Of a stretch of DNA of 64,000 nt, positions 42,497-58,789 are shown piece by piece. How positions within the stretch are numbered: position 1 is the stretch's first letter; the number at the start of each line of letters is the position of its first letter. The notes beneath the pieces are model-generated. The model saw only the letters and a list, made by a program, of their open reading frames with translations. It had not been told where the DNA came from and searched no databases. Where the stretch lies: assembly GCF_001050275.1 (NCBI RefSeq), contig NZ_BBYA01000002.1, positions 186,001-250,000 of the forward strand, written 5' to 3'. This stretch comes from Leptolinea tardivitalis. Its GTDB lineage: Bacteria; Chloroflexota; Anaerolineae; Anaerolineales; Anaerolineaceae. The position numbers and the translations under genes were made by a program.

Positions 42497-42949
42497 ATGA
42501 ATGTAGCCGTTTCCTGTGATCATGCCGGCTTTTCGTATAAAGCCCCGATCATGCAGTTAATAAAAGAGCTGGGTCATACTGTCATAGAAATGGGTGCCAG
42601 TTCGACTGAGCCAGTAGATTACCCTGATATTACAGAACCGGTTGCCCGGGCTATTCAGTCCGGGCAAGCCGATCGGGCGGTGATCATCTGTGGTTCTGGA
42701 GTGGGAATCACTTTTACAGCCAATAAATTTAAAGGCGTACGCGCATGCATCTGCCATGATTCATATTCAGCCCATCAGGGGGTGGAGCATGATGATCTTA
42801 ATGTTTTATGTATAGGTGCAAAAGTCGTTGGAATAGAAGTTGCCAGAGAACTGGTAACTTCTTTTCTTGCCGCTAAATTTTCTACACTCGAACGTTATCA
42901 CCGCCGGATTGAGAAGGTGGAATTGATAGAAAGAAGGATGTTCAAATGA
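42497..42949 (+). CDS. rpiB: ribose-5-phosphate isomerase B
   Basis: 150 residues. SCDHAGFSYKAPI at the N-terminus, CGSGVGITFTANK near 62-74 (catalytic Cys and phosphate loop) and HDDLNVLCIGAKVVG near 98-112 are family signatures. It interconverts ribose 5-phosphate and ribulose 5-phosphate. The start lies three bases after the transketolase stop, and the stop overlaps the start of the tal-pgi gene by four bases. Confidence 0.95.
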   Translation: MNVAVSCDHAGFSYKAPIMQLIKELGHTVIEMGASSTEPVDYPDITEPVARAIQSGQADRAVIICGSGVGITFTANKFKGVRACICHDSYSAHQGVEHDDLNVLCIGAKVVGIEVARELVTSFLAAKFSTLERYHRRIEKVELIERRMFK

Positions 42950-45726
42950 GCAAATCTAGTTTGCAGCAATTGGTGGATGCCGGTCAATCCCCCTGGTTGG
43001 ATAATATTGACCGCCGGCTTTTAAAAGATGGCGGCCTTGCCAAATTGATTGCCGATGGCGATATCACTGGTGTGACATCAAACCCGACAATTTTTAACAA
43101 TGCGATTGGCGGTTCACGCATCTATGATGAAACGATCCAGCCGATGGCACTTGCCGGGAACGACCCGGAATCGATTTTCTATCAACTTGCCATTGAGGAT
43201 ATTCGCCAGGCAGCTGATTTGTTCCGGCCTATCTACGACCAGACAAATGGCGCTGATGGCTATGTCAGTCTGGAGGTAAGCCCCAAACTGGCACGCAGTA
43301 CAAAGAAGACTGTGGAAGAAGCCAAACGGCTGTGGAAACTACTGAACCGTCCGAATGTGATGATTAAGATCCCCGCCACATTACAGGGTTTGCCGGCCAT
43401 TACAGCTGTTATTGCCGAGGGTATAAACGTCAACGTTACGTTGATCTTCTCCATCGAAAGGTACCAGGCTGTAGCCGAAGCGTATATTCGCGGTCTTGAA
43501 AAAAGAGTAAAAGCCAAGAAACCAATTGACCACATCGCGTCATGTGCCTCTTTCTTTGTTTCCCGTATTGACACCAAGGTGGATGGTCAACTCAGGAAAA
43601 TTGTTGAAGCCGGGGGCAGTAATTCCAAATTGGCTTCTGAATTGATGGGTAAGGCGGCTGTTTCGACGTGCAAGACAGTTTTTGGTATTTTTGAAGAAAC
43701 CTTTGCTTCTGAACGGTTTCAGAAACTGGCAGCCAAGGGCGGACGGATACAACGGACGTTATGGGCTTCTACCAGCATGAAAAATCCGGCGTATCGCGAT
43801 GTTTTGTATGTCGAATCTTTGATCGGTGCAAACACTATCAACACCATGCCGCCAGGAACCGTGAAAGCCTTCAAGGATCACGGGCAGGTAGGCAAGGGTG
43901 CAAATGAAGGAAAAGCAGAAGCCGCGAAAGTGCTGGCTGATTTACCCAAAGCCGGCATTGACATGATGGAGGTTTCTGCCCAATTGGAGGATGAAGGTGT
44001 TAAATCTTTTATTGCCTCCTACAAAGAATTGCTGAAGACTATCGACAAGCGTTCCAAAGAATTCCGAAAATCCATGGGCAATTTAGCTGTCCCGGTTGAA
44101 AATGCGATTAAAGCATTAAAAGAGAAAGATTTTGTTGCCCGGATGGAAAACAAGGATGCCTCTCTCTGGACGATGGATCCAGCCGGTCAAAAAGAGATCG
44201 GTATTCGATTGGGATGGCTGGCTGCACCTGCCAAAGGAGCTGCCATTATTGAATCCATCAAACCTCTTCTGGCAGAATGCAAAGAAGAAGGAATGTCACG
44301 GATTCTTCTTCTCGGTATGGGTGGCTCTTCATTGGGTGTTGAAACCATGTCATTGATCCTGGGTACCGGGGAAGCCGGTATGGAATTGAAAATTCTGGAT
44401 ATGACAAACCCGGATCAGGTTCTGGCGGCTGCTCATTGGGCCTCATTAAAGAAAACTCTCTTTTTTGTGGGATCAAAATCTGGCTCCACAAGTGAAAGTA
44501 ATGCATTCATGGATTATTTCTGGGAAAAAGCCCAGAAAACTCTTGGAAAGAAAGCCGGACGGCACTTCATTGCCATCACAGATCCGGAAACCAGCCTGAG
44601 CAAGGTGGCAGAAGAACGCGGATTCCGAAAAGTACTCTTGAGTGATCCAGAAGTTGGCGGACGGTATTCTGCCTTGACTATGTTTGGATTGGCACCTTCT
44701 GTGTTGATGGGGCAGGATACCGACAAGCTGCTGGAAACGGCATTAAGTATGAGTGAACTTTGTTCATCCTCCACTCCCATCGAACGCAATCCGGGCATCA
44801 TGCTGGGAGCATTTATCGCGGCAGGTGTTTTGAAAGGAAAAGACAAAGTCACCCTGATTACAGACCCAGAACTAGCTGCTTTTGGTCCCTGGGTTGAACA
44901 GCTCATTGCTGAAAGCTCAGGCAAAAATGGAAAAGGTATCGTTCCGGTGGATGCCGAACCAAAACTGGACTTCTATTCGACGGACCGGGTATTTGTCTAT
45001 TTGCGGCTTAATGGTAAAAATGAACGCCGCGCCGCCAAAGCTCGCCGCGCCGGACATCCCTTGCTGGTGCTGCCCTGGAATTCAGGATATGACCTGGGTG
45101 GTGCGTTTGTTCAGTGGGAAGTAGCTACAACGGCGGCATGCTGTCTGATGGGTGTTAATCCATTTGATCAGCCAGACGTGCAGGAAAGCAAGGTACGCAC
45201 AAAACAATTGACGGATGCCTACTTGAAAGACGGGAAACTCAACATGGGATCGCCTATATGGGAAAATGAAGTAGCTGCCATATATGGTGACCATTTGAAC
45301 GGTATTGATTCTGCCAAATCTTTATCAGACGTTCTGAGTGTCTTTCTCAAACAGGTTCAGATCGGGGATTATGTAGGCGTGAATGCTTATGTGCCGCGCA
45401 ACGATCGTACGATGAACGAATTTACAAAATTCCGAAGCGCCATCACAAAAAAGACCGTCACCCCAACAACTCTGGGTTACGGTCCACGCTTCCAACATTC
45501 CACCGGTCAACTTCACAAAGGCGGGGCTAATAATGGCCTGTTCATTGAAATCACGGCCGAACCTTCGGCTGATGCCGAAATCCCCGGATGGAAAATGCCT
45601 TTCAGTGTACTCGAAGCCGCACAGGCTCTGGGCGATTTTGATACCCTGCAATCGCGCAAACGCCGGGTTATTCGCATTCATTTCAAGAAACCTTTTGGAC
45701 GCGGAATGCTGCCTGAAATCAAGTAG
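42946..45726 (+). CDS. bifunctional transaldolase / glucose-6-phosphate isomerase
   Basis: 926 residues in two parts. Residues about 1-375 are a transaldolase: GVTSNPTIFNNAI near 42-54, the Schiff-base lysine in NVMIKIPAT near 140, and SFFVSRIDTKVDG near 204-216. Residues about 380-926 are a phosphoglucose isomerase: LLGMGGSSLGVE near 455, SKSGSTSESNAF near 510, and the late HKGGANNGLFIEIT near 855. The fusion would take sedoheptulose 7-phosphate plus glyceraldehyde 3-phosphate to fructose 6-phosphate and on to glucose 6-phosphate. Such Tal-Pgi fusions are known in several lineages. It ends the operon before a strong terminator. Confidence 0.95.
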   Translation: MSKSSLQQLVDAGQSPWLDNIDRRLLKDGGLAKLIADGDITGVTSNPTIFNNAIGGSRIYDETIQPMALAGNDPESIFYQLAIEDIRQAADLFRPIYDQTNGADGYVSLEVSPKLARSTKKTVEEAKRLWKLLNRPNVMIKIPATLQGLPAITAVIAEGINVNVTLIFSIERYQAVAEAYIRGLEKRVKAKKPIDHIASCASFFVSRIDTKVDGQLRKIVEAGGSNSKLASELMGKAAVSTCKTVFGIFEETFASERFQKLAAKGGRIQRTLWASTSMKNPAYRDVLYVESLIGANTINTMPPGTVKAFKDHGQVGKGANEGKAEAAKVLADLPKAGIDMMEVSAQLEDEGVKSFIASYKELLKTIDKRSKEFRKSMGNLAVPVENAIKALKEKDFVARMENKDASLWTMDPAGQKEIGIRLGWLAAPAKGAAIIESIKPLLAECKEEGMSRILLLGMGGSSLGVETMSLILGTGEAGMELKILDMTNPDQVLAAAHWASLKKTLFFVGSKSGSTSESNAFMDYFWEKAQKTLGKKAGRHFIAITDPETSLSKVAEERGFRKVLLSDPEVGGRYSALTMFGLAPSVLMGQDTDKLLETALSMSELCSSSTPIERNPGIMLGAFIAAGVLKGKDKVTLITDPELAAFGPWVEQLIAESSGKNGKGIVPVDAEPKLDFYSTDRVFVYLRLNGKNERRAAKARRAGHPLLVLPWNSGYDLGGAFVQWEVATTAACCLMGVNPFDQPDVQESKVRTKQLTDAYLKDGKLNMGSPIWENEVAAIYGDHLNGIDSAKSLSDVLSVFLKQVQIGDYVGVNAYVPRNDRTMNEFTKFRSAITKKTVTPTTLGYGPRFQHSTGQLHKGGANNGLFIEITAEPSADAEIPGWKMPFSVLEAAQALGDFDTLQSRKRRVIRIHFKKPFGRGMLPEIK

Positions 45727-45867: not shown

Positions 45868-46500
45868 TTATGTAATAAGTTTATCTACTTCTCCATTCAT
45901 AATGAAGGGCAGGTTTTGTTGGATCTTGTCATAAGACCAATTCCACCATTGAATCTTCTGCAATTTCATGATGGTGTTTTCATCAAAACGCTTTTTGATT
46001 TCCTTTGCAGGAATACCACCAACAACAGAATAAGGAGGAACGTCTTTTGTCACCACTGCCCTTGTGCCTATAATGGCACCATCGCCAATATGTACTCCTG
46101 ACAGGATGACGGCTTCATATCCAATCCAGACATCATTACCAATAATGATATCGCCTTTGTTATCCCAGGCAGAAGCAACGTTTGCTTTGTCTAGATTCCA
46201 TTCCTCAAAGAAAATGGGAAATGGATAAGTGGAAAGCGATTTTTGTGTATGATTAGCGCTGTTGAAAATGAATTTTGCCCCACAGGCGATTGAACAAAAC
46301 TTGCCGATGATTAATCTGTCTTTATTAATTGGATAGTGATATAGAACATTGTTCTTTTCAAATTGTGTCGGATCAGATACAAAATCGTTGTACATTGTGA
46401 AATCACCGATACTGATACTTGGATCAGTAACCACACTTTTCAAGTAAATGGTTTCTGTATCATTTTTCCGTGGATACATTTTCATTTCTGGAATAGTCAT
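45868..46500 (-). CDS. Vat/CatB-like xenobiotic O-acetyltransferase (LbH fold)
   Basis: From ATG 46500 with AAGGAG upstream the product has 210 residues. It carries the hexapeptide-repeat left-handed beta helix and strong resemblance to streptogramin A (Vat) and type B chloramphenicol acetyltransferases: MKMYP start, [36 protein letters not shown] with the catalytic His, [13 protein letters not shown], and the terminal KWWNW-like [10 protein letters not shown]. Residues and length agree with the Vat group. True substrate is not known; many chromosomal relatives do not give resistance. The gene looks more AT-rich than its neighbours, which suggests gain by transfer, perhaps from Firmicutes. 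Confidence 0.88.
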
Positions 46501-46526
46501 AGAGTAACTCCTTGAGTTTATTTTTT

Positions 46527-46565
46527 TTATTCGACTATTCCAGCCATCACAATGCACCTTTGCAT
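46527..46565 (-). CDS. possible 12-codon leader peptide upstream of the acetyltransferase
   Basis: On the minus strand ATG 46565 opens a 12-codon frame ([12 protein letters not shown]) ending at TAA 46529-46527, 27 bases before the acetyltransferase start. AAAGGTGG lies upstream as a possible binding site. Antibiotic resistance genes are often controlled by such leaders. There is no experimental or comparative support here, so this is speculative. Confidence 0.3.
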
Positions 46566-46566
46566 A

Positions 46567-46617
46567 ATACCACCCACCTTTCTGAAAAAATGATTGGTTA
46601 ACCAACCAGGGTGGTAT
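46567..46617 (-). repeat. inverted repeat with inner palindrome upstream of the acetyltransferase
   Basis: Arms ATACCACCC (46567-46575) and GGGTGGTAT (46609-46617) are a perfect 9-bp inverted repeat. Inside lies the 12-bp palindrome TTGGTTAACCAA (46594-46605). It could be an operator, an attenuator stem or a remnant end of a mobile element. Confidence 0.6.
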
Positions 46618-46662
46618 CATACCTCAATTTTCTACTGTTGAATGGATCTTTCAGAAAAATTA

Positions 46663-46706: not shown

Positions 46707-47982
46707 TCAATCGGGTGCAGGTGAATAACCACCAACCTGGGGAAGATCCCTGTAGAAGCCGTCTGTTCCTTTAAACCGAAAATACGTGACTGCGCCAGGA
46801 TTTATGGTGATATTGTAGTGATATTTTGTCTTTTCATATTCAATTTCAACTATATAATTTCCGGCTGGAAGATCACTTAATACAAGGTTTTCACCATAAT
46901 ATGGATCGCTGTGAACAAATTTTTCGCCGTATGTACGTACGTACAAGCCAGGTTTTTTTGCGGTCTGCCTGCATTACAGTAATTTCCTGTGATGTGTAGA
47001 AAGACCCTGATGTGTTCATAATTCTACCGACCAATACTCCCCATCCTTGAGGCGGTGCCAGCCAGAGTTCGGGATTCAGGGAAGAATTGAACATATTCTG
47101 TTTCCAGCGAACTTCAAAATGAAGGTGCGGGCCTGTTGTGGCGCCAGTATCCCCGACAATTCCAAGAACATCACCGGTGTTGACCTGCTGATTGGGTTGA
47201 ACATAGACTTCGTTCATATGGGCATAGATTGTGTAGAGTTTTTCTCCCTGGAACCCAAAGGAATGTTCAAGGGTCACAGCAATGCCATAAGGGTCTTTGG
47301 ATTCATTGACTCCTGCATAAACTCCATACCCGGCCCATAGAACGCGTCCGGGTGCAGCCGCTCTAACCGGGGTTCCCATGGGGGCATCGATATCTATACC
47401 GGTGTGAACAACACCTTCCCACTTCTCATTAATTCCGCCATAACGGTAGTTCCACAATGGCCAATTGATTGTGTTGGCTGAAATAGGGCGGGCGAAATAG
47501 AAATGATCATGCTCGCTCAATGCCCAGGGGATCGGGTAAAGCGGTGGACGCCAGTTTAATTCACCAGACGGTTCTGGGGTGGGAAAAGCAATCTCAAGAG
47601 GTTCTGCTTTGGCGGGGTCTGGTGTTGGAGCAACTGTAACCAGATTCATTGTTGGTGTTGCCATTTGTATTGTTGGTACAGCAACAGTCGGTTCGACTGT
47701 TGATATATCTGTGGCAGCCATTGTTTGTATTTTAGTCGGGGTAGGCCAGGCTAATTCAATTGTGGCTGTGGGTGGAACATCTTGCCCATTTGAGGCTTCT
47801 TTTTGAGCTGGATCATCAAGTGTTGGAAGCACTTTTAAAAGTGAACTTCCATTATTGGATTCAGTGGATGGATTCGATGCCTGAACTTCCGGGATGGTTA
47901 GATACGTTGAACAGGAAGATAAACTGATGGTTATCAAAAGATTCAAAAAGAATACGTGTAAGAAACTTGCATTACATTTCAT
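46707..47982 (-). pseudogene. M23 peptidase lipoprotein interrupted by a frameshift
   Basis: Frame one (47982 to 46891) encodes a lipoprotein signal with lipobox LSSC (Cys24), a Thr/Pro-rich linker, and a full M23 endopeptidase domain with HTGID (H-x3-D) and the HLHFE motif. It then runs out of the natural sequence at about residue 340. A second frame (46946 to 46707) continues exactly where it breaks, with LYVRTYGEKF and a beta-rich tail ending in GYSPAPD. Joining at the seven-A run (T7 at 46953-46959 on the plus strand) gives KKPGLYVRTYGE and an intact gene. One base less would restore the frame. It may be a sequencing artefact, a recent mutation or slippage. The peptidase itself is complete in frame one. 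Confidence 0.85.
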
Positions 47983-48013
47983 TTCAATTCAGTTCTCAAT
48001 TTGTTCACACACA

Positions 48014-49921
48014 TCATTTACTTTTAACCGGCGTGGATGTTGCTTCCGGTGGAACGGCTGTGGGAAGCGGAGTGAGGGTATTTTTGACAGCCGGCTTAGA
48101 GAAATTTACACCAGGATACATTTGCGATAACGCGGTGTTTAAATCCAATCCATCGGTCATGGCGAATAATGTGAACCTTGCACCGGGATAATACGTGATC
48201 CAATTGGATAAAGCCGGGAACCTTTCCCATCCATATCTTGCTGCCCATTCCGTAAAGTCTATCCAGTAGCCTTCTGGCACGCCAATTTCTTTTCCGCCTT
48301 TTTCATAAACAGAAGGATCACCTGAATTACGGGAGGTTATGTCCCAGGCTTTATCTGTCATGGGACGTCCCTGCGAACCATCCTGGGTACGAGTTTTCAG
48401 GAAAATCCTCCAATATGTTTGTGTGCCCATATCTTCGCGTACGAGTGCCATCCAACCTGAATTCATGGGCAGGTCATTAATAGAAATTCCCCGGCCGGTG
48501 CTCAACCAGGAGTTTTGCATGCCTGGCTCTTCATTGGTATCTTTATCTGTGAAAGCAGCCTTCAGACTGTTGAGCAAATCCCATCCGACCAGATTACCAA
48601 TTCGAGTGCGCAAACCGACGAAGGATTCGTCTACAGAATCTAAGAGAGCCGGTGTAGGAGCAGAAACACCGTCTAGAACCGCTAACCCATCCATACCGGC
48701 CGGTACTGGATCTTTAGCCAAAATTGGAGTCCATAACGGTTCTGCTGTCGGCGAAGGCGCTTCCGCCAAACGTGAAGAAAGAGCTTGAGGCAGACCGGCT
48801 ATCTTCCAATCCATTCCCTGAATAGGACCTGGCAGACGAATTAATGGAATTCGAATCAGCCCTGTCTCTATCTCATAGGAAGCAAAGGCAGTCAGATTAG
48901 GTTGAAGAACCCGTGAGGCAATTGTCGTACCGGTTGGATCCCAGATAGGCCAATCGCCAGTACCCACTGTTTTTAATGGTTCATTGGGGTTGGTATTGTT
49001 CCAGATGACCAGTGTTTCAATTCCGTTGGTTTTCTTTGCCCAGCTCAGGAAACGCCCATCTGGTGACCAGCTTGGGTGAGTATCTTTACTTTCAGAGTCA
49101 AGGCTGATGTTGATAAAACGTTCATTGAAATTATCAAGACGGGCGATCCAGATTTCATCTTCACCAGAACGGTCGGAAACAAAAGCAATTTGACGTCCGG
49201 TTTCTCCAGGCATCCAACGAGGTGAAAAATCAGTGGATGGTTCGTTGGTCAATTCCAGTGGCGCTTTTTCAGGATGCGCAACCTCCAAAAGGTATATATC
49301 GAGATTACCTTTGGTATAAGATTCGTAGGCAATCCATTGACTGTCAGGCGACCAGGTTGGGGACCCGTCATATTCCGGGGTGGATGTCAGCTGGGAGATT
49401 TCTCCAGTCAGCAGGTCAAGTGTATACAAATCCCAATATCCGGAACGGTGAGAACTGAAGGCGATCTTTGTCCCATCCGGACTAATACTTGGATCAATAT
49501 CATCATATTCACCATCTGTCAGCCGAAGCAATGGCAAATATTGAGGATGATAGGCGAACAGGTGAAAATAAGCGCCATCTGCCAGAGAAAGGATTATTAC
49601 TCCTTGCTGTTGTAGTCCTGAAAAATTCGCACTGGGTTCTGTGGGAGTCAGTGTTGGAATTTCAGGCGTAGGAGAGGGTGATTCTGTTGGAATTTCGGTG
49701 GGGATTATTTCTGTCGGAGTACTGGTAGGTGTTTCTGTAATTGTAGGCGCAGGAGGTAAAGTTGGAGTGGTGAGAACACTACTTTCAAAAATCGGCCAGA
49801 GGAAGTAAATCGTTCCGGCAATATTGGCAATAATGAATAAAACCAATAGATATAGAACCACTTTGGAAACAGGTTTTGATTTCATAAGGCCGGCATTCTG
49901 GGTTGGAGGATGGTTTTCCAA
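48014..49921 (-). CDS. membrane-anchored PD40/TolB-like beta-propeller protein
   Basis: Up to 635 residues from a TTG at 49921; an ATG 12 codons later (49885) is an equally good start. A membrane helix lies near 20-45, followed by a Thr/Pro-rich linker (about 50-95). Next come TolB-type PD40 repeats (DPSISPDGTKIAFSSHRSG, SPTWSPDSQWIAY, HPSWSPDGRFLSW) over roughly 115-360. The C-terminal 250 residues form a separate domain without a recognised fold, containing a WRIFLKTRTQDGSQGRP segment. It ends in a second Pro/Thr-rich tail. Predicted exported and surface-anchored. It lies five bases after an M23 gene and 31 bases before another, so it belongs to an envelope operon. Confidence 0.82.
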   Translation of the reverse strand: MENHPPTQNAGLMKSKPVSKVVLYLLVLFIIANIAGTIYFLWPIFESSVLTTPTLPPAPTITETPTSTPTEIIPTEIPTESPSPTPEIPTLTPTEPSANFSGLQQQGVIILSLADGAYFHLFAYHPQYLPLLRLTDGEYDDIDPSISPDGTKIAFSSHRSGYWDLYTLDLLTGEISQLTSTPEYDGSPTWSPDSQWIAYESYTKGNLDIYLLEVAHPEKAPLELTNEPSTDFSPRWMPGETGRQIAFVSDRSGEDEIWIARLDNFNERFINISLDSESKDTHPSWSPDGRFLSWAKKTNGIETLVIWNNTNPNEPLKTVGTGDWPIWDPTGTTIASRVLQPNLTAFASYEIETGLIRIPLIRLPGPIQGMDWKIAGLPQALSSRLAEAPSPTAEPLWTPILAKDPVPAGMDGLAVLDGVSAPTPALLDSVDESFVGLRTRIGNLVGWDLLNSLKAAFTDKDTNEEPGMQNSWLSTGRGISINDLPMNSGWMALVREDMGTQTYWRIFLKTRTQDGSQGRPMTDKAWDITSRNSGDPSVYEKGGKEIGVPEGYWIDFTEWAARYGWERFPALSNWITYYPGARFTLFAMTDGLDLNTALSQMYPGVNFSKPAVKNTLTPLPTAVPPEATSTPVKSK

Positions 49922-49926
49922 ACGGT

Positions 49927-50949
49927 CTATTTGGCCGCAAGACTTGCTTTAAATAAATCCATCGGATCAAACATCTGGAAAACACCACTTACTCGCCAGT
50001 TGCAATAGTTATGCCTGTCTTCTTCGGTAGTAATTGGGTCATAATGTCCCATATTCTTGAATGTGGCACCAGATGGACCGATGCGCATTTCAAGGTGAAG
50101 ATGTGGGGCACTGGAATAACCGGAATTACCAACATAACCAATAATCTGGCCAATCTGGATGGCGTCTCCCTGTTTGAAGCCGGGAGCGGCAATCATATGT
50201 CCATAGAGGGTATACAGGGATTTACTGGATGAATTCCATTGATCTTTCGAAAGATCGGGACAGTTCAATTTATTGTTGATTACAGTTCCAATAGGCTGCG
50301 TGGGAATCTTGATGGCATGCAGAATATTTTGTGGGAGTGATTCCAACGGGGTTTCAATCATCAGTGCATACCCATATGGAGGTTTTTCCTCAGAATCAGA
50401 CATTGAGACTTTACCGGAAAAAACCGACAGAATGGGATTTCCCAGAATGGACTTGTTGCCTCTGCTCCAAAATGCAAAATCTACACCATGATGCCCAGAA
50501 TCTTCTCCAGGTGGAGGCATTTTAAATTCTTGTGAGATCAGTTCCTGCAAATCTCCAATATTAAAATCTTCCAGCGGGCTGCTGATGGTTAAAGTCTTCA
50601 CAGCTACTGGTGAAGTATTGTTTGCCATGTTATCGGGTGTAGATTGGGTTGTCGGTTGGCGTGTTGGAGTAATAAAAGGTGTGTTGACAACATCAGGGGT
50701 TTTAATTAAACGTGCACCTGACCATTCACTATTTGCTATAGCAGCATCAATCGGTGAGATCGACGGTGTAGCGCCGGGCAAGACCACTGTAGCAGCCGGC
50801 AACTGACTTACTTCTTGATTCGTTTGAGGTAAATAAATAAAAACAAATGCTGCCGTGATCATCATTACAAAAACGAATAATTTGATGATGATCAAAGTTA
50901 CGCCTGTCAGCAAAGGAATTAGGTTTGAGAAATTATCCCTATTGTTCAT
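49927..50949 (-). CDS. M23 family peptidase, membrane-anchored
   Basis: 340 residues. A membrane helix lies near 15-40, then a Thr/Pro-rich linker, then the M23 domain at about 145-320. HHGVDFAFW (H-x3-D) and the HLHLEMR motif near 285 carry the zinc ligands, and YGHM is the third conserved site. An insertion of about 60 residues sits between the first strand and the YGHM part (PPYGYALMIE to SKSLYTLYGHM). It would cut peptidoglycan cross-links or bind them outside the cell. It heads a three-gene unit with the PD40 protein and the second M23 protein. Confidence 0.9.
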   Translation of the reverse strand: MNNRDNFSNLIPLLTGVTLIIIKLFVFVMMITAAFVFIYLPQTNQEVSQLPAATVVLPGATPSISPIDAAIANSEWSGARLIKTPDVVNTPFITPTRQPTTQSTPDNMANNTSPVAVKTLTISSPLEDFNIGDLQELISQEFKMPPPGEDSGHHGVDFAFWSRGNKSILGNPILSVFSGKVSMSDSEEKPPYGYALMIETPLESLPQNILHAIKIPTQPIGTVINNKLNCPDLSKDQWNSSSKSLYTLYGHMIAAPGFKQGDAIQIGQIIGYVGNSGYSSAPHLHLEMRIGPSGATFKNMGHYDPITTEEDRHNYCNWRVSGVFQMFDPMDLFKASLAAK

Positions 50950-50984
50950 GAACCCCTGAATACCTGCAAGATTATGTTTTCGGT

Positions 50985-51023
50985 AGAAGAGAGGCTGACT
51001 TGAATTCCGTCAGCCTCTCTTCT
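50985..51023. terminator. terminator between membrane-protein gene and M23 operon
   Basis: A perfect 15-bp inverted repeat (50985-50999, 51009-51023) with a 9-base loop, 12 bases beyond the stop of the 51036-51752 gene on the minus strand. Separates it from the M23 operon downstream. Confidence 0.85.
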
Positions 51024-51035
51024 GGAATTAGTACA

Positions 51036-51752
51036 TTAGCGTTTTCTGGGAGCCGGTTCGGTAAACAGGTCTCCGGGCGTATCCAGATCATCCACAGGTG
51101 GAGGGGGTGGAGTTTCGCGATGGGGAGCTGTGGGAGCAGATTGTGAAGCCACTGGAGCTATGGGGGCTGGAGCTGTAGGTACAGGCATAATAGGAGTTGT
51201 TGAACTTACCGGGACTCCAAAAATAGCTGCACGAACCAGAGTTCCCAGTCCGGGGACATTCGCATTCTCAGGAGACCACGGTTCACCGTAGAAGACAGCT
51301 CTGACTCTGCCTGAATACAGGAAGATCAAAACGATGATATCCAGGAAGGTCATCAAGGAGTAACCGCAAATGGCGGCAACTGCAACTCCGGTAACAGCTC
51401 CTACATCCGGGAGCAGGCTATTAATTACCGGAATACCCGCTCCAAGAAGGAGGAACAGACCGCCTATTGATCCAAACAATGCCAGGAAAACGGCACCCAT
51501 GCGGGAGCTGTTTTTCAACCGGATTAGTCCTGAACCGATGGATGCATACCATATGCAGAGGACCAGACCAAAAATCGCGCCGATTACCGGCATAAACACA
51601 GCCTGTGGATTGGTAGATGCCGTAGCCAGATTGGGGATAATAGCAAAAACGACGGTTGCTGCAGCACCGAGCAAGCAGACAACAGCCAGTAGGAAGTGGT
51701 ATGATGCCACAAGAATGACACCATCCCATACTGATTTGTCGTTATTATTCAT
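51036..51752 (-). CDS. four-helix membrane protein with Pro-rich tail
   Basis: 238 residues, ATG 51752 with AGGAGG upstream. Four hydrophobic helices (about 15-35, 48-68, 80-105, 115-145) are followed by a ~75-residue cytoplasmic or outer tail rich in Pro, Ala and Thr that ends basic (PAPRKR). No family recognised; the DDL/TPGD tail has no known motif. It stands between the WD40 gene upstream and the M23 operon downstream on the same strand, with a terminator after it. Function unknown, presumably envelope. Confidence 0.7.
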   Translation of the reverse strand: MNNNDKSVWDGVILVASYHFLLAVVCLLGAAATVVFAIIPNLATASTNPQAVFMPVIGAIFGLVLCIWYASIGSGLIRLKNSSRMGAVFLALFGSIGGLFLLLGAGIPVINSLLPDVGAVTGVAVAAICGYSLMTFLDIIVLIFLYSGRVRAVFYGEPWSPENANVPGLGTLVRAAIFGVPVSSTTPIMPVPTAPAPIAPVASQSAPTAPHRETPPPPPVDDLDTPGDLFTEPAPRKR

Positions 51753-51834
51753 CCTTTATTCCTCCTGTATTGCAGAATCGAAGAATGGCGATTTCAGAAT
51801 GGCTGTATTTTAACCTGAAATCATTCCATTCCAT

Positions 51835-54066
51835 TTACTGTTTTATCCCATAGAGACGAATTGTCCCATCAGTGGAACCTGCTGCAAGAACCTTACCATC
51901 AGACGATAAGGCAAGTTTTGTAAGTGCACCAGGTGTTCCCGGAGTTTCTGTGAGCAAATTACCGCTCGTTATGTCGTAAAACTCAATCCCCTGACCGCCA
52001 ACTGCAAGGACTTTATTGTCAGATGAAAAAACCAGCGAGTTTGATCCTTTTGTTTGGAGATTGCGCACCATTGTCCACCCGTTGGTTTCCCATATATAGG
52101 TGTTGCCGTCTTCGCTTGAGGAAGCTATTTGACTGCCATCGGGACTGAACGTAATACTTCGAACTGCGCGGGAATGTTTTTCAATAGACGCGATCAATTC
52201 ACGAGTATCGAAATTCCAGATTCGAATAATGCCATCTCCACCAGCGGATGCCAGCATATTGGATCCTTTGCGGAGTGTCAGTTCTATATCACCTTTTGTA
52301 AAACCGGTGATGTTATACAAACCCGTTCCAGACGCCATTTCCCACATTTTCAGGGTTATGTCCACCCAACCGCCGGATGATGCCAGACGAGTTCCATCCG
52401 AATTGAAAGCTACCGAACGCACGCCGCCGCTGTGACCACGGAGCATATAGACTTTTTGTCCGGTTGAAATATCCCAGATAATGATGGTGTTATCTGCACC
52501 TCCAGAAGCCAGGAATCGGCCGTCGGGACTGAAATCAAGTGTGTTAACGTTGCCTACATGACCTTCGTACAAGGCTGTCTGTGTGCCAGTCTTAGGATCC
52601 CATAAAGAAATTTTGCCATCCTGATTCCCGGCAGCCAGTACGGTGGCATCTTTGTTGAAAGCCAGTGTCGTGATAGAGTTTGTAAACCCTTTAAATGGAG
52701 CTACAAGTGCATCATCCGCCGGCCGCCATAAATGCAGAGTATTCGCACCAATTGCCAACAGGGAAGAATCAGAATTGAATGAGACAGAATTAACTTCACC
52801 GGGAACTTTGCTAACAGTCTTCAATAATTTGCCTGTAGCAACATCCCATAAATTGACCGATCCATTCTGCTCACCCGAAACAAGAGAAGCACCATCCTTT
52901 GTGAAAACGAGACTGCGTACGCCTGATGTTACCGATGTCAAACGGATTTGCTTGCCGTTGGTAGTATCCCAGAGAATGAAGGTATTGTCATCACTGGCTG
53001 TGGCTACAATCTTGGAATCTGGGCTGATAACCACCGCATTGACCGGTTTATAGTGGGCTGTAATTGATATGAATCGTAAACCAGAAGCTACATTCCACAT
53101 GGACAGAGTTTTGTCTTCAGATCCGGCAACCACGAGCTGACCATCTGGACTGATTTGCATTGTGCGTATGGGATTGCCTGTCCCTTCCAGTTGTTTGATC
53201 AATGATCCGTTAGAGGAATTCCAGATGGAAATGTTCCCATCAACACCCGCCCCAAGGATGGTTGTTCCATCAGGACTGTAGGCCAAACTGGTAATACGCA
53301 CACCTTTTGTATCGATGTTTACTTGAGCTTCACCTGTTCCATACTTCCAGATAATGACGCTATTATCCAATCCGGCTGTAACCAGATGAGAGCCATCTGG
53401 ACTGATGGCTGCACCGGAGATGCCAGTATTTAGAAATACAGGGTTTACTTCTGTGCCCGTTGATGGATCTAGATAAAAGAAACCTCCGCTGGTGGATGCA
53501 AAAAGGTAAGCATTACCAACAGACGAAGGAGCCCATAAAACCTGAGTGATTTTCCCTTTTCCCAATTGACCAACCAGCCTGAGATATGCCAGATTATCCA
53601 ACCCATACGGCTGATCAGGCAATTGAATGGCTCCCTGAACGCTGACCACATTCACGTTGGCTGCCGGAGCCGGTTGCGTCGGATTTGCTGCGGCTGCCTG
53701 TGTGGGTTGAGGCTGAGCAACAGTCGGGGTGGGTTGTACCGGGGTGGGATTTTGAGGAACTGCTGTAGGCACCGGTTGTGATGGCACTGATATAGTCGGT
53801 GGTACTTCAGCCGGTTTTGTTGGAACCGGTGTAGGCACAGATGTTTTCTTCCAGAAGAGTGCCAATGGTGTCTTTATAATTTTTGTCTGAGTCGGCCGGG
53901 GAGTAACCGGCATTCTCGCTTTGCCGGAAGTTCGAGTCGTTGCGAAAACAAGCATGGCAGCGGCAGAAATGACCAGTGCAATTGAAACAAAAATTTTAAT
54001 CAGTATGGCAATTGTCAGGGTATTGCTTGAAAAATCCGGACGTTGTTGCAATGATGAGTTCCTCAT
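51835..54066 (-). CDS. WD40-repeat protein, membrane-anchored, probably two propellers
   Basis: 743 residues. A membrane helix lies near 17-45, then a Pro/Thr/Gln-rich linker to about 150. From about 160 to the end run some 13-14 WD40 repeats with the usual SPDG turns and IWD/LWD ends (for example DNSVIIWKYGTGEAQ, SEDKTLSMWNVASG, GADNTIIIWDISTGQ), enough for two seven-bladed propellers. Predicted outside the cell, anchored at its N-terminus. WD40 repeats mediate protein contact; no enzyme domain is present. Divergent from a ParA-like ATPase gene. Confidence 0.88.
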   Translation of the reverse strand: MRNSSLQQRPDFSSNTLTIAILIKIFVSIALVISAAAMLVFATTRTSGKARMPVTPRPTQTKIIKTPLALFWKKTSVPTPVPTKPAEVPPTISVPSQPVPTAVPQNPTPVQPTPTVAQPQPTQAAAANPTQPAPAANVNVVSVQGAIQLPDQPYGLDNLAYLRLVGQLGKGKITQVLWAPSSVGNAYLFASTSGGFFYLDPSTGTEVNPVFLNTGISGAAISPDGSHLVTAGLDNSVIIWKYGTGEAQVNIDTKGVRITSLAYSPDGTTILGAGVDGNISIWNSSNGSLIKQLEGTGNPIRTMQISPDGQLVVAGSEDKTLSMWNVASGLRFISITAHYKPVNAVVISPDSKIVATASDDNTFILWDTTNGKQIRLTSVTSGVRSLVFTKDGASLVSGEQNGSVNLWDVATGKLLKTVSKVPGEVNSVSFNSDSSLLAIGANTLHLWRPADDALVAPFKGFTNSITTLAFNKDATVLAAGNQDGKISLWDPKTGTQTALYEGHVGNVNTLDFSPDGRFLASGGADNTIIIWDISTGQKVYMLRGHSGGVRSVAFNSDGTRLASSGGWVDITLKMWEMASGTGLYNITGFTKGDIELTLRKGSNMLASAGGDGIIRIWNFDTRELIASIEKHSRAVRSITFSPDGSQIASSSEDGNTYIWETNGWTMVRNLQTKGSNSLVFSSDNKVLAVGGQGIEFYDITSGNLLTETPGTPGALTKLALSSDGKVLAAGSTDGTIRLYGIKQ

Positions 54067-54115
54067 ACGGAAGATGTAGGGAAACCAGACAATACAGAAA
54101 TTTTCACGTATTGAG

Positions 54116-54145
54116 ATTATAATAGCAGAAATTCTTTCAAGGCAA
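54116..54145 (-). promoter_or_regulatory. possible promoter of the WD40 gene
   Basis: On the minus strand TTGCCT (54145-54140) and TATAAT (54121-54116) with an 18-base spacer, 50 bases before the ATG at 54066. Confidence 0.5.
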
Positions 54146-54231
54146 AATTACGACACTTGCCTTTCACCCCGGCATACAGTTATTCATCAGGAAATCCGTC
54201 GGGAATTTATCTGACATGAGGTTCTAGTATT

Positions 54232-55026
54232 ATGATAACGACCTTTACATCCATGAAGGGCGGAACCGGAAAAACGACTATCACGGGGTTGCTTGCCAGC
54301 TATATGACACAATTCTACAAGAAACGTGTCATTATTGTAGATATTGATCCCCAGGGGGGAAGTACGACCCTGTTTTGCGGGGGAGAAGCTCGTACAACTA
54401 TTGATGGAAAAGGCGGTCCCACCGTTTTCAATGTTCTGGAAACCGTCCGCGAAGGCGGCGAAACCCGACAGGTTGTACAGAAATCTCTAATGCGTTCCAA
54501 ATACAATGAAAATGTCTTTGTAATACCTGCAGATTACCGGGTAACCAGTCTATTAAGTATGGGCGAATCACCGGATATCCTTAAGTATGCTCTTGAAGAA
54601 GCCTCTTTCTCAGAGGATCTGATCGTGCTGGTTGACACCGGAACTGCGCCATTCCTTGTTTCAATGGCTATTTCTGCGGCTACTGATAAAGTTTTTGTCC
54701 CGTTGATGCTTTCCATGCAAAACCGCAAGCCTACGGCAGATACAATTCAACTTGTTCTGCGTCAACGTAAGCAGCTGGCCGGTATAGTTCCTGTAGGCAT
54801 TGGCAATGCCAAGTGGGAAGAAATGACTATCGAAAGCTGGAATGAAAGTTTGAAAAATAATCCTTTGCTTTCCAATGCCAGAATTCTTTCCGGAATTCCG
54901 TACTCAAAAACACTCGTACGCAGTGAGTGGGTTGACCAGGTTTTTCCCGACCGGCTTACGCCGGTGTTCGCTGAGCTTAGTTCCATTCTTTTGAATGGAC
55001 GAGCCCATACGGATATTGAACAATAG
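54232..55026 (+). CDS. ParA/MinD-like P-loop ATPase
   Basis: 264 residues. Deviant Walker A KGGTGKTT at residues 9-16 with the signature first lysine, IVDIDPQGGSTTLF near 34-47 (switch I) and LVDTGTAP near 134-141 (switch II) put it in the ParA/MinD/SIMIBI group. No amphipathic C-terminal membrane helix like MinD was seen and no parB, parS or dnaA lies nearby, so it is not clearly a chromosome partition protein. Divergent from the WD40 gene and followed by a strong terminator, it is a single-gene unit. It may position the neighbouring envelope proteins; that is inference. Confidence 0.88.
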   Translation: MITTFTSMKGGTGKTTITGLLASYMTQFYKKRVIIVDIDPQGGSTTLFCGGEARTTIDGKGGPTVFNVLETVREGGETRQVVQKSLMRSKYNENVFVIPADYRVTSLLSMGESPDILKYALEEASFSEDLIVLVDTGTAPFLVSMAISAATDKVFVPLMLSMQNRKPTADTIQLVLRQRKQLAGIVPVGIGNAKWEEMTIESWNESLKNNPLLSNARILSGIPYSKTLVRSEWVDQVFPDRLTPVFAELSSILLNGRAHTDIEQ

Positions 55027-55082: not shown

Positions 55083-56405
55083 TCATTTTGTAATTTTTCT
55101 AGCCTCGAGATAAAAACGTTTTTCCCGGGCTTCACCCATGGAAAAAGTTTTTCGGGGGAGAGCGCCGTCCAGAATGACCGTGCGGAATAATTCTCCTTTA
55201 GACATTGCTGGCAAATAAAAACCCACATGAGAAGGCTGCGCACTCAGGTTTGACAGAACATCGTCGCCATGGACGTAATCAATTTTCACTGTATTTGCAG
55301 TTTTTAACCATGAGTCCAAAAAGGCTTGCAACGTTCCCACTGGCAGGTTTGACTCCGGCTGCATGACCTCAGCCACCAGGAAGTTGTCGGCAGTCAACAT
55401 CCCGAAGCATTGAGAAAAACCGCTATGTTCTTTGATTTTTGTTTTCATCGTCTGCATAGAATCCACGGTTTCTGTTTTTAACCGGGCACCATAGAACGCG
55501 TGCATTCCAGCCAATACGGTTTCAGGATTTGCCCCGGCTAGAATCCGGTGAATAGGTTCAAATACCAGAGCCGGATCATGTAAGTTTTCCAGTTCAATCA
55601 AAGCATACCGTGACGGATGGTCCATTCCAAGTTTTGCCTTATTCATTTCCCATACAGATTTTGCTGTTGCCAGAGAATGGTTCCCATCACCGACAGCATA
55701 AAGGAGGACTCCTTTTTCCGGTCCCACACGGTACTTTTTCTGGAAATTAGCCGGTTTTGCCAGGTTTTCCAATGCCGCCACCAAAGCCTCTTCTATCTGA
55801 GGATTGGTTACTTTCCATCCGCGGATATGACCGCTTTCCAACATCAAATCAAAGTCATAGACAGTTGGAGTCGATTCCACTGCTTCAATCACAGGTTCAA
55901 TCACGGTTTTTTCAGGATCGTCTATCAAAACCAGAATATGCGGCAGTTCCAGTGATGCTTTTTGACGAATTTTTATCCGAGGAGGCAGCCGGTCAAGGAT
56001 GGTGCCTTCGGTTGCCCGGATCATGGTTTGTGAACCGCGGTTGAAATCATATTTTTCGAGATCAAGGGCGAGGATCAGTCCTTTACGTTTGGCAGAACCC
56101 ACAGTCCGTTCAACAGCAATCATTCCTTCAAAACTGGCGAATACTGATTGTTGCAGATATGCCTGCATATGGTAATAGGTTGACTCTATCCGGGATTGTT
56201 CATCTTCTTTCCCCAGGAATACTTCTGGAAGGATCAGGTTTAATGTTGAGGGAGAATCTCCCACTATTTTCTTTACTTCTTCCCAGTATTCAGGTTGAGA
56301 TGTGAACTGGTCACAGGCAATAACCGCCCATTTCTGTAAGTCAATACCAGATTTCGGTATGAGAATATCCGGAATCTGTAAACCTACCGATGGGAACGTA
56401 TGCAT
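55083..56405 (-). CDS. DUF1015 family protein
   Basis: 440 residues, ATG 56405 with GGAGG upstream. The family pattern is clear: KWAVIACDQFTSQPEYWEEV near 26-45, KRKGLILALDLEKYDF near 105-120, and LLYAVGDGNHSLATAKSVW near 236-254 (the DGNHS motif). DUF1015 members are widespread and of debated function; a few are described as kinase-like. It lies 45 bases downstream of the degV gene on the same strand, so the two may be co-transcribed. Confidence 0.85.
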   Translation of the reverse strand: MHTFPSVGLQIPDILIPKSGIDLQKWAVIACDQFTSQPEYWEEVKKIVGDSPSTLNLILPEVFLGKEDEQSRIESTYYHMQAYLQQSVFASFEGMIAVERTVGSAKRKGLILALDLEKYDFNRGSQTMIRATEGTILDRLPPRIKIRQKASLELPHILVLIDDPEKTVIEPVIEAVESTPTVYDFDLMLESGHIRGWKVTNPQIEEALVAALENLAKPANFQKKYRVGPEKGVLLYAVGDGNHSLATAKSVWEMNKAKLGMDHPSRYALIELENLHDPALVFEPIHRILAGANPETVLAGMHAFYGARLKTETVDSMQTMKTKIKEHSGFSQCFGMLTADNFLVAEVMQPESNLPVGTLQAFLDSWLKTANTVKIDYVHGDDVLSNLSAQPSHVGFYLPAMSKGELFRTVILDGALPRKTFSMGEAREKRFYLEARKITK

Positions 56406-56450
56406 GAATGCGCCTCCAGGAAATATGTATTTTCCTGGATTGTAACAAAT

Positions 56451-57308
56451 TTACATACCAGCCATGTAAGCAATCCCGACAGTACCTGGCCCAGTGTGAG
56501 TTCCAATTACCGGGCTAACCTCTGAAATATAGGCTTCATCTACATCACTGATTCCAAAATGATTGCGGGCTTTTTCTAACAACATGGCAGCATTTTCAGG
56601 ATCATTTGCATGAATAGTCGCAAGGCGAATGGGTGTGCGTGAATCAATCCGCTTAATGGTTAATTCCAGCATTCTGTCCAGGGCTTTATTGATATTACGA
56701 ACGCGTTCCACAGCGTCCACCCGCCCGTTTCGTACTTCCAGAATGGGTTTCAGGTTGAGGGCAGTGCCCAGGAAGCGGGCGGCGCCGCCAATACGGCCAC
56801 CTCTATGAAGAAATTCCAGTGTGGATGCCGTAAATAAGACACCGGTGTGGTCACGAGCTTGGCCGGCTACAGCTATACATTCGTTCAATGATGCTCCCAT
56901 GGCTGCAGCGCGTGCGGCTGCTAATACCTGGAAACCCATGGCCATGGCCGTCGTGGTGGAATCGAATAATTCAATCCGAGCTCCGGGCAATTGCGCTTTC
57001 GCCTGGGTGGCAGAATCTAAAGTGCCGCTTAATTTCTGGGAGATATGGATGCTTAAAACATCATAGTTCTCGCGAATAAGATCCTCATATAATGACAGGA
57101 AAGCTGCCGGTGTCACTTGTGACGTGGATGGCATCGATTTGGATGTTGACAGACGTTGATAAAAATCCTGCGTTTTGATCTCAATACCATCGAGATAACT
57201 CTTTTCGTCCCAAATGACCTGCAGCGGAGTAATAAAAACCGGGTATTTCTTAATTAACTCATGGGGAATATTGGCGGTGCTATCTGTAACGATGGCTACT
57301 TTCGACAT
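56451..57308 (-). CDS. DegV family fatty-acid-binding protein
   Basis: 285 residues. VTDSTANIPHELI at the N-terminus, TSQVTPAAFLSLYEDL near 60-75 and LEFLHRGGRIGGAA near 163-176 are DegV hallmarks. DegV/FakB proteins bind a fatty acid and, together with a FakA kinase, feed acyl phosphate to lipid synthesis. No fakA is present in this window. ATG 57308 has AAGGAG. Divergent from ffh. Confidence 0.93.
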   Translation of the reverse strand: MSKVAIVTDSTANIPHELIKKYPVFITPLQVIWDEKSYLDGIEIKTQDFYQRLSTSKSMPSTSQVTPAAFLSLYEDLIRENYDVLSIHISQKLSGTLDSATQAKAQLPGARIELFDSTTTAMAMGFQVLAAARAAAMGASLNECIAVAGQARDHTGVLFTASTLEFLHRGGRIGGAARFLGTALNLKPILEVRNGRVDAVERVRNINKALDRMLELTIKRIDSRTPIRLATIHANDPENAAMLLEKARNHFGISDVDEAYISEVSPVIGTHTGPGTVGIAYMAGM

Positions 57309-57466
57309 ATTACGTCTCCTTGTAATACTAAAAACATATCAATATCAATTCTCATAAAGCCATAACCCTGATGATAGGTTTTCGTTGCAAAAATAACTAT
57401 TTGCAATTGAATGTAATATTTAAGGGTATACTTGTCGTTCTTTGATCTGCTACACTTGAGATTGAT

Positions 57467-58789
57467 ATGTTTGAATCGCTGACTGACCGTCTGAACCAGG
57501 TTTTCACACAGTTGCGCCGCAGAGGTAAACTCTCGGAAGCAGATGTTGATGCTGCTCTTCGCGAAGTTCGACTGGCTTTACTGGATGCGGATGTTCATTA
57601 TTCTGTGGTTAAAAAATTTACCGCTGGTGTTCGTGAACGGGCTGTGGGGGCAGAAGTCTCCCGTGCCTTGAATCCGGCCCAGCAGGTTATCAAGATCGTT
57701 CATGAGGAATTGATTTCCACCCTCGGAGAACCGGAACGGTTGAATCTGACCGGCGAGAAACCCCGGGTGATCATGCTCGTGGGTTTACAGGGTTCGGGTA
57801 AAACCACCGCAGCAGCCAAACTGGCCCGGTTATTGCGTTCACAGGGTGAACGCGTATTACTGGCAGCGGCTGATCCATACCGGCCGGCTGCGGTTCAACA
57901 ACTGGTAACACTCGGTGGGACAGTGGGAGTTGAAGTTTTTACCGATTCTCGATTAAACCCCCCCGAACTGGTTCAAAAGGCTTACGAACAGGGAATTAAG
58001 GGCGGATATTCGATTCTGATTGCCGATACAGCCGGCCGTTCTCAGATGGATGATACTCTAATGGATGAGTTGAAAGCCATCACCAGGAAGGTCAAACCAG
58101 CGGATATTCTGCTGGTGGTAGATTCGATGGTCGGCCAGGAAGCATTGCATATTGCAGAGGGTTTTCGAGACACCGTTACCCTCACGGGTCTGATTTTAAC
58201 AAAGATGGATGGTGATGCCCGGGGAGGCGCAGCCATTTCCATTCGAAGCGTCACCGGTGTCCCTATCAAATTCCTGGGTGTGGGGGAAGGAATCGATGCG
58301 CTTGAAGTGTATGATCCCCGCCGTCTCGCCTCCCGAATCCTGGGGATGGGTGATGTCATCGGGTTGATTGAAAAGGCGGAAGCCGCTTTTGATCTGGAAG
58401 GAACACAGAATCAGGCTGCCAGGATGATGTCAGGTAAATTCTCTTTGGAGGATTTTGCCGCTCAGATGAAGCAAATTCGGAAAATGGGACCCATTTCTCA
58501 GATTTTCGATATGCTTCCGGGCAATCTTGGAAAAGTTGCCCAACAAGTGTCTCCACAAGATGCAGAAAAGCAATTAAAATTGACAGAAGCGATCATCAGT
58601 TCGATGACTCGGGAAGAACGACGGGAACCGGATATTCTGAATGCCAGCCGCCGACGGCGGATAGCCAGGGGTTCTGGTGTGGATGTGCAGGATGTCAACC
58701 GGGTAATGAAGAACTTCCGTGAAGCTCAAAAATTGATGAAAACGCTGCAAAAGACAGGTGGGAGGGGACTTCCGAAAATCTTCGGATAG
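57467..58789 (+). CDS. ffh: signal recognition particle protein Ffh
   Basis: 440 residues, full length. N domain (about 1-90), G domain with P-loop GLQGSGKTTAAAKL near 105-118, DTAGR near 190 and TKMDGDARGGAA near 246-257, and the Met-rich M domain (about 300-440) with KMGPISQIFDMLPG and the SRRRRIARGSG RNA-binding turn. It binds signal sequences and 4.5S RNA to deliver ribosomes to the membrane. First gene of the ffh-rpsP-khpA-rimM series. Confidence 0.98.
   Translation: MFESLTDRLNQVFTQLRRRGKLSEADVDAALREVRLALLDADVHYSVVKKFTAGVRERAVGAEVSRALNPAQQVIKIVHEELISTLGEPERLNLTGEKPRVIMLVGLQGSGKTTAAAKLARLLRSQGERVLLAAADPYRPAAVQQLVTLGGTVGVEVFTDSRLNPPELVQKAYEQGIKGGYSILIADTAGRSQMDDTLMDELKAITRKVKPADILLVVDSMVGQEALHIAEGFRDTVTLTGLILTKMDGDARGGAAISIRSVTGVPIKFLGVGEGIDALEVYDPRRLASRILGMGDVIGLIEKAEAAFDLEGTQNQAARMMSGKFSLEDFAAQMKQIRKMGPISQIFDMLPGNLGKVAQQVSPQDAEKQLKLTEAIISSMTREERREPDILNASRRRRIARGSGVDVQDVNRVMKNFREAQKLMKTLQKTGGRGLPKIFG

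Follow-up and report, generated by a model that had tools for sequence, protein, structure and literature searches.

ParA/MinD ATPases position their cargos through partners other than ParB in McdAB and other systems (PMC10241942, PMC12204374), with partners that bind via a charged, disordered end and neighboring genes that indicate the cargo (PMC10241942). In FtsEX, a cytosolic ATPase and a membrane protein act on an extracytoplasmic wall hydrolase or activator, namely EnvC, PcsB or RipC (PMC11627006), and in the bactofilin-M23 endopeptidase systems, a cytoplasmic self-organizing protein is reported to cooperate with an M23 endopeptidase (PMC10945521). The locus described here, from a 64,000-nucleotide stretch of the Leptolinea tardivitalis genome (the window), resembles each of these in part. 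As in the ParA/MinD positioning systems, a lone ATPase with an intact deviant Walker A motif is encoded beside the likely cargo and a candidate partner with a disordered end, but here that candidate is a membrane protein with several helices, and a peptidoglycan endopeptidase would take the role of cargo. The layers of FtsEX can be discerned as well, although the ATPase belongs to an unrelated family and there is no recognizable FtsX; compared with the bactofilin systems, a ParA-type ATPase stands in place of the bactofilin. Among the papers found to mention both ParA-like ATPases and wall endopeptidases, no title or abstract opening describes a system that joins the two.

The most far-reaching reading, with a probability of about 0.35, is that a ParA-type ATPase captured from a partition operon controls a peptidoglycan endopeptidase via a tailed four-helix membrane adaptor, which would be a spatial or switching system of the Anaerolineaceae unrelated to FtsEX. 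If this is true, wall hydrolases would join the cargos of ParA/MinD ATPases, and there would be a second route, besides FtsEX, from a cytosolic ATPase to an extracytoplasmic M23 enzyme.

Gene content of the locus

The window belongs to a genome of 3.69 Mb in 15 contigs; its locus was compared with about 20 related loci, and whole genomes were searched. All six genes of a preliminary description of this DNA are found, by ORFs and Pfam matches, where that description placed them and with the domains it assigned (Table 1). The five minus-strand genes, spaced by 5 to 86 bases, have the appearance of a single operon; the ATPase gene is divergent from them, and the gap between it and the WD40 gene is probably a shared promoter region.

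Table 1. Features of the ATPase-M23 locus in window coordinates
Feature	Position	Strand	Evidence
M23a	47982-46707	minus	Pfam M23, 1e-26
Three GTAC units, GTACGTACGTAC; frameshift point in M23a	46933..46944	minus	
PD40 protein, 635 aa	49921-48014	minus	Pfam PD40, 2e-32
PD40 C-terminal domain, aa 405-598	48128..48709	minus	model pLDDT 84, core about 95
M23b, 340 aa, membrane-anchored M23 endopeptidase	50949-49927	minus	Pfam M23, 4e-13; metal motifs HHGVD and HLHLE
Four-helix membrane protein, 238 aa, proposed adaptor	51752-51036	minus	no Pfam match
Disordered Pro-rich tail, aa 160-238 of the membrane protein	51039..51275	minus	pLDDT <50 at residues 179-238; alignment
Conserved end peptide of the membrane protein, LDTPGDLFTEPAPRKR	51039..51086	minus	kept in both genera, linker diverged
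WD40 protein, 743 aa	54066-51835	minus	Pfam WD40, 2e-89
Intergenic gap of 165 bp, ATPase and WD40 genes diverging from it	54067..54231		coordinates
ParA-type ATPase, 264 aa	54232-55026	plus	Pfam AAA_31/CbiA, 2e-13

The block had been proposed as a candidate novel machine of this composition, possibly for filament septa or sheath organization. The genes and their linkage stand, and scattering of the key genes in relatives, which had been set beforehand as a reason to drop the proposal, was looked for and is not the case, but the single machine does not survive the comparison, and nothing at the locus supports a part in septa or sheath. The block is a composite of an old pair, a rarer module and a WD40 protein, because the PD40-M23a pair has a long history apart from the ATPase, the WD40 protein is genus-restricted at the locus, and the companions of the ATPase are the membrane protein and M23b.

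The genes for DUF1015, DegV and Ffh at 55083-58789 represent the neighborhood of the block, which is conserved across the family. Below the block, a 926-aa ORF (42946-45726) reads in translation as a transaldolase fused to a glucose-6-phosphate isomerase, and a hexapeptide acetyltransferase (45868-46620) is closest to the Vat/CatB models, with scores below every NCBIfam cut-off shown; it is at most a putative resistance gene.

The PD40-M23a pair and the WD40 protein

Relatives of the PD40 protein are encoded in 97 of 121 related genomes, in 83 of these with a longer match. In genomes that encode M23a as well, there are 83 PD40 loci. At 73 of these, the two genes are adjacent and codirectional, with M23a downstream; at the other 10, which include an additional PD40 copy from a genome counted before, the M23a match is on a different contig. 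PD40 and M23a are an old pair, widespread in related genomes and independent of the ATPase. The PD40 protein consists of an N-terminal helix, a Pro/Thr linker, a TolB-like propeller and a C-terminal domain. Its propeller resembles TolB of the Tol-Pal system (E 2e-33 against the TolB model), but the protein reaches 116 bits against a curated cut-off of 343, has the additional C-terminal domain and is followed by an M23 gene, not Pal.

The two seven-bladed propellers that had been suggested to form a scaffold are recovered in part: as read from the repeat spacing, the WD40 chain alone probably holds both, with one N-terminal helix, a Pro/Thr linker and about 14 repeats spaced by ~42 aa, whereas the PD40 propeller looks TolB-sized, with about six blades. 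The scaffold itself found no support. The WD40 protein is present at this locus in the genus of the window only, and since the module loci in the other genus do without it, we rejected it as a module member.

The C-terminal domain of the PD40 protein, which goes beyond the preliminary description, belongs to no named family in Pfam or NCBIfam and occurs beyond the bacterial family of the window, both within its class and in remoter families of the phylum (34 of 350 genomes). A PDB profile search with this domain yielded only chance-level matches to other folds, and the nine genomes searched for VanY relatives, for a profile comparison, contained none. Every listed VIA match is a Hedgehog, VanX/VanXY/VanY, LdcB, endolysin or MepA protein, at Z of 5-8, where 7-8 is near the background of the aligner, and the best Foldseek match is weak (E 0.16). 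With Z values so close to the background, the argument lies in the agreement of the matches as a group, which is weak but consistent, and in the sequence at the motif position. The zinc motif of the Hedgehog/DD-peptidase proteins consists of H-X6-D and H-X-H (PMC6027127). The position of H-X6-D would fall on L-Y-T-G-R-A-I-A in the PD40 domain, with L for H in 37 and A for D in 27 of the 39 sequences, none of whose aligned columns is a conserved His; accordingly, neither part of the M15 motif is present. The likeness to M15 proteins would be one of predicted fold and of the YTGRAI stretch at the motif position, but the zinc ligands are replaced and there is no sequence-profile match. A Hedgehog/DD-peptidase-like fold is likely, albeit not proven, and the domain is probably a pseudo-peptidase. 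If the fold is right, the domain would lack the usual means of binding zinc, and its role may lie in the binding of wall peptides or in the regulation of M23a; the propeller protein as a whole is probably a peptidoglycan binder by which M23a is guided or activated. This widespread propeller with an apparently dead peptidase-like domain would be a candidate, uncharacterized M23 regulator of Anaerolineaceae and related families.

Both M23a and M23b have the M23 domain with HxxxD and HxH. In M23a, the sequence ISLSSC and a Pro/Thr linker accompany an intact M23 domain (aa 192-299; HTGID and HLHFE), and the protein is probably a lipoprotein. The third GTAC unit at 46944-46933 cuts its C-terminal beta domain, which is read in the +1 frame, leaving the catalytic domain untouched. 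Both congeners in which the gene is complete keep this frame open, and the shift seen here is either a mutation or an assembly error.

Histories of the ATPase, the membrane protein and M23b

The ATPase has the signature of the ParA/MinD superfamily, a deviant Walker A motif with signature lysine (KGG(T/V)GKT, here MKGGTGKTT with K9 and K14) and DxD (D37, D39), as well as D135; all these residues are invariant in an alignment with four relatives, and the closest solved structures are McdA and Soj (E about 1e-6). The gene had been described as a lone ParA-like ATPase without parB. This is correct within the block, where no parB lies beside it, but the genome does encode one ParB_N protein, at C2:36-38 kb, paired with its own parA. 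A pairing of the ATPase with a distant parB, named in the preliminary description as evidence against its proposal, was rejected, as this genome has no second ParB_N protein.

The nearest relatives of the ATPase outside the group are 37% and 30% identical, and a ParB_N gene lies directly downstream of each. Because these relatives precede ParB_N genes and the ParB_N protein of the home genome has its own ParA, capture of the ATPase from a partition operon is likely, though not proven. The contig of the 37% relative carries transposase-like genes, by reading of translations, and a short Anaerolineales contig (L101:101-3201) encodes a ParA-like protein followed by ParB_N, a 105-aa ORF and an ORF that reads as CpaB-like. 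No ATPase relatives were found on plasmids at 1e-5. The ATPase is present in 6 of the 121 relatives, including a distant copy in G016 that is located elsewhere in the genome. In a scan of ~85,000 species genomes, which undercounts distant relatives, at least four records among the matches listed contain close copies, including a G003 contig already seen; the closest named record among these matches is from Leptolinea sp. (88% ATPase identity).

In all nine genomes with a close ATPase, which belong to two genera, the ATPase, the membrane protein and M23b occur together, the ATPase being on a separate short contig in one of the nine (G002). The gene order is Ffh, DegV, DUF1015, ATPase, WD40, membrane protein, M23b, PD40, M23a in the genus of the window, and Ffh, M23b, membrane protein, ATPase, DegV, DUF1015, PD40, M23a in the other genus, g9 (G071, G516, G519, G523 and G525), so that the three genes stay together despite different order and orientation. 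Generally, M23b adjoins PD40 at 32 of 52 loci; in g9, there is no M23b in this old place. No ATPase is seen in further g9 members (G045 and G061).

The phylogenies of the two neighbors disagree. In the M23b tree, the ATPase-bearing loci of both genera form one clade (97/96), and the alternative in which the module loci of g9 group with their congener G045, a long branch, is marginally rejected (AU p = 0.048). In the PD40 tree, the g9 module loci join G045 and G061, of their own genus, and a tree constrained to unite the ATPase-bearing loci is rejected (AU p = 1.6e-7). M23b, as judged from these trees, tracks the ATPase and not the genus, with the marginal rejection of the by-genus grouping, and, most simply read, the genes for the ATPase, the membrane protein and M23b were relocated or retained together. 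Beside the PD40-M23a pair, these three may constitute a functional module, a tentative conclusion that falls only slightly short of probable. Against it stands the orientation of the ATPase gene in the window, divergent from the others.

These histories bear on two alternatives. The ATPase could be a partition ATPase that works on the chromosome or on some other cargo and lies among wall genes only by chance, as suggested by the ParA-ParB order in its nearest outside relatives and by the possibility that the one ParB of the genome is shared; this appears unlikely, given that the chromosomal ParB has its own adjacent ParA and that the three genes persist together through rearrangement, with a matching M23b tree. 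Alternatively, a loose set of envelope genes could be kept by synteny, without a shared mechanism, within the Ffh-DegV-DUF1015 neighborhood. The family-wide conservation of this neighborhood and the occurrence of the WD40 protein at the locus in a single genus fit such an explanation, but the module occupies two distinct positions in the neighborhood, the M23b and PD40 trees disagree, and the tail of the membrane protein co-occurs with the ATPase, so that we consider it quite improbable.

The tail of the membrane protein and the proposed mechanism

The membrane protein, found in 12 of the 147 genomes of the family, belongs to no family in Pfam or NCBIfam and has four predicted helices in a low-confidence model (mean pLDDT 55). 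It adjoins M23b even where no ATPase is clustered. The four-helix part is common to relatives without a clustered ATPase, which end near 190 aa; in genomes with a clustered ATPase, the protein is longer by about 60 residues. The added linker is Pro/Ala-rich in one genus and Lys/Pro/Gln-rich in the other, whereas the terminus LDxPG[DE]LFTEPxxRK is present in all nine ATPase-module genomes, out of frame in one of them (in G071, L079:10080-10829, the tail is out of frame with the helices). The tail is missing in two complete relatives without a clustered ATPase (L080 and L082); a third comparator is cut by the contig end, and one of the tail-free comparators, G016, is the genome with the distant ATPase elsewhere. 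A DNA pattern for PG[DE]LFTEP has exactly one exact site per genome in all five ATPase genomes searched, always in the membrane-protein gene, whereas no site occurs in three genomes that lack a clustered ATPase. Because the nine genomes represent two lineages, the co-occurrence of tail and ATPase reflects perhaps one or two events.

A fast-evolving linker with a fixed terminus looks like a docking peptide; the tail might resemble the C-terminal peptide of FtsZ. Under the positive-inside rule, the positive residues in the helix 2-3 loop and downstream of helix 4 indicate that the tail should be cytoplasmic. A ParA/MinD positioning system is defined by dynamic localization and by a partner that stimulates the ATPase; linkage and tail conservation make the membrane protein a candidate for that partner. 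Known ParA/MinD partners use the N-terminus, whereas the end peptide is C-terminal here. The contacts, topology, positioning and activation that we infer are as follows. The ParA-type ATPase would use the cytoplasmic C-terminal peptide as its docking site on the membrane protein, and the membrane protein would hold or signal to M23b, passing the place or state of M23b across the membrane; ATP-dependent patterning or switching of the ATPase would set where or when M23b opens peptidoglycan. With the short peptide and the ATPase named, this docking is directly testable with purified proteins.

The same three layers, a cytosolic ATPase, a multi-helix membrane protein and an extracytoplasmic M23 protein, also fit a gate: the ATPase and the membrane protein could gate M23b as FtsE and FtsX gate EnvC, PcsB or RipC, without spatial patterning. 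FtsEX is documented ATPase control of such hydrolases (PMC11627006), and the membrane protein and M23b remain linked. The ATPase, however, is of the ParA type, not ABC, and the membrane protein seems to lack a large outer domain. ParA dimers, moreover, usually pattern rather than pull. Gating of this kind is, in our estimate, an unlikely alternative to control by a docked ParA-type ATPase.

Further membrane-associated genes accompany the tail-free form of the membrane protein. An anchored protein of 315-318 aa with no Pfam family is encoded between M23b and the tail-free membrane protein at L080:10384-11340 and L082:10367-11314, and in G016 a 387-aa membrane protein, likewise with no Pfam family, lies beside it (L080:12024-13187).
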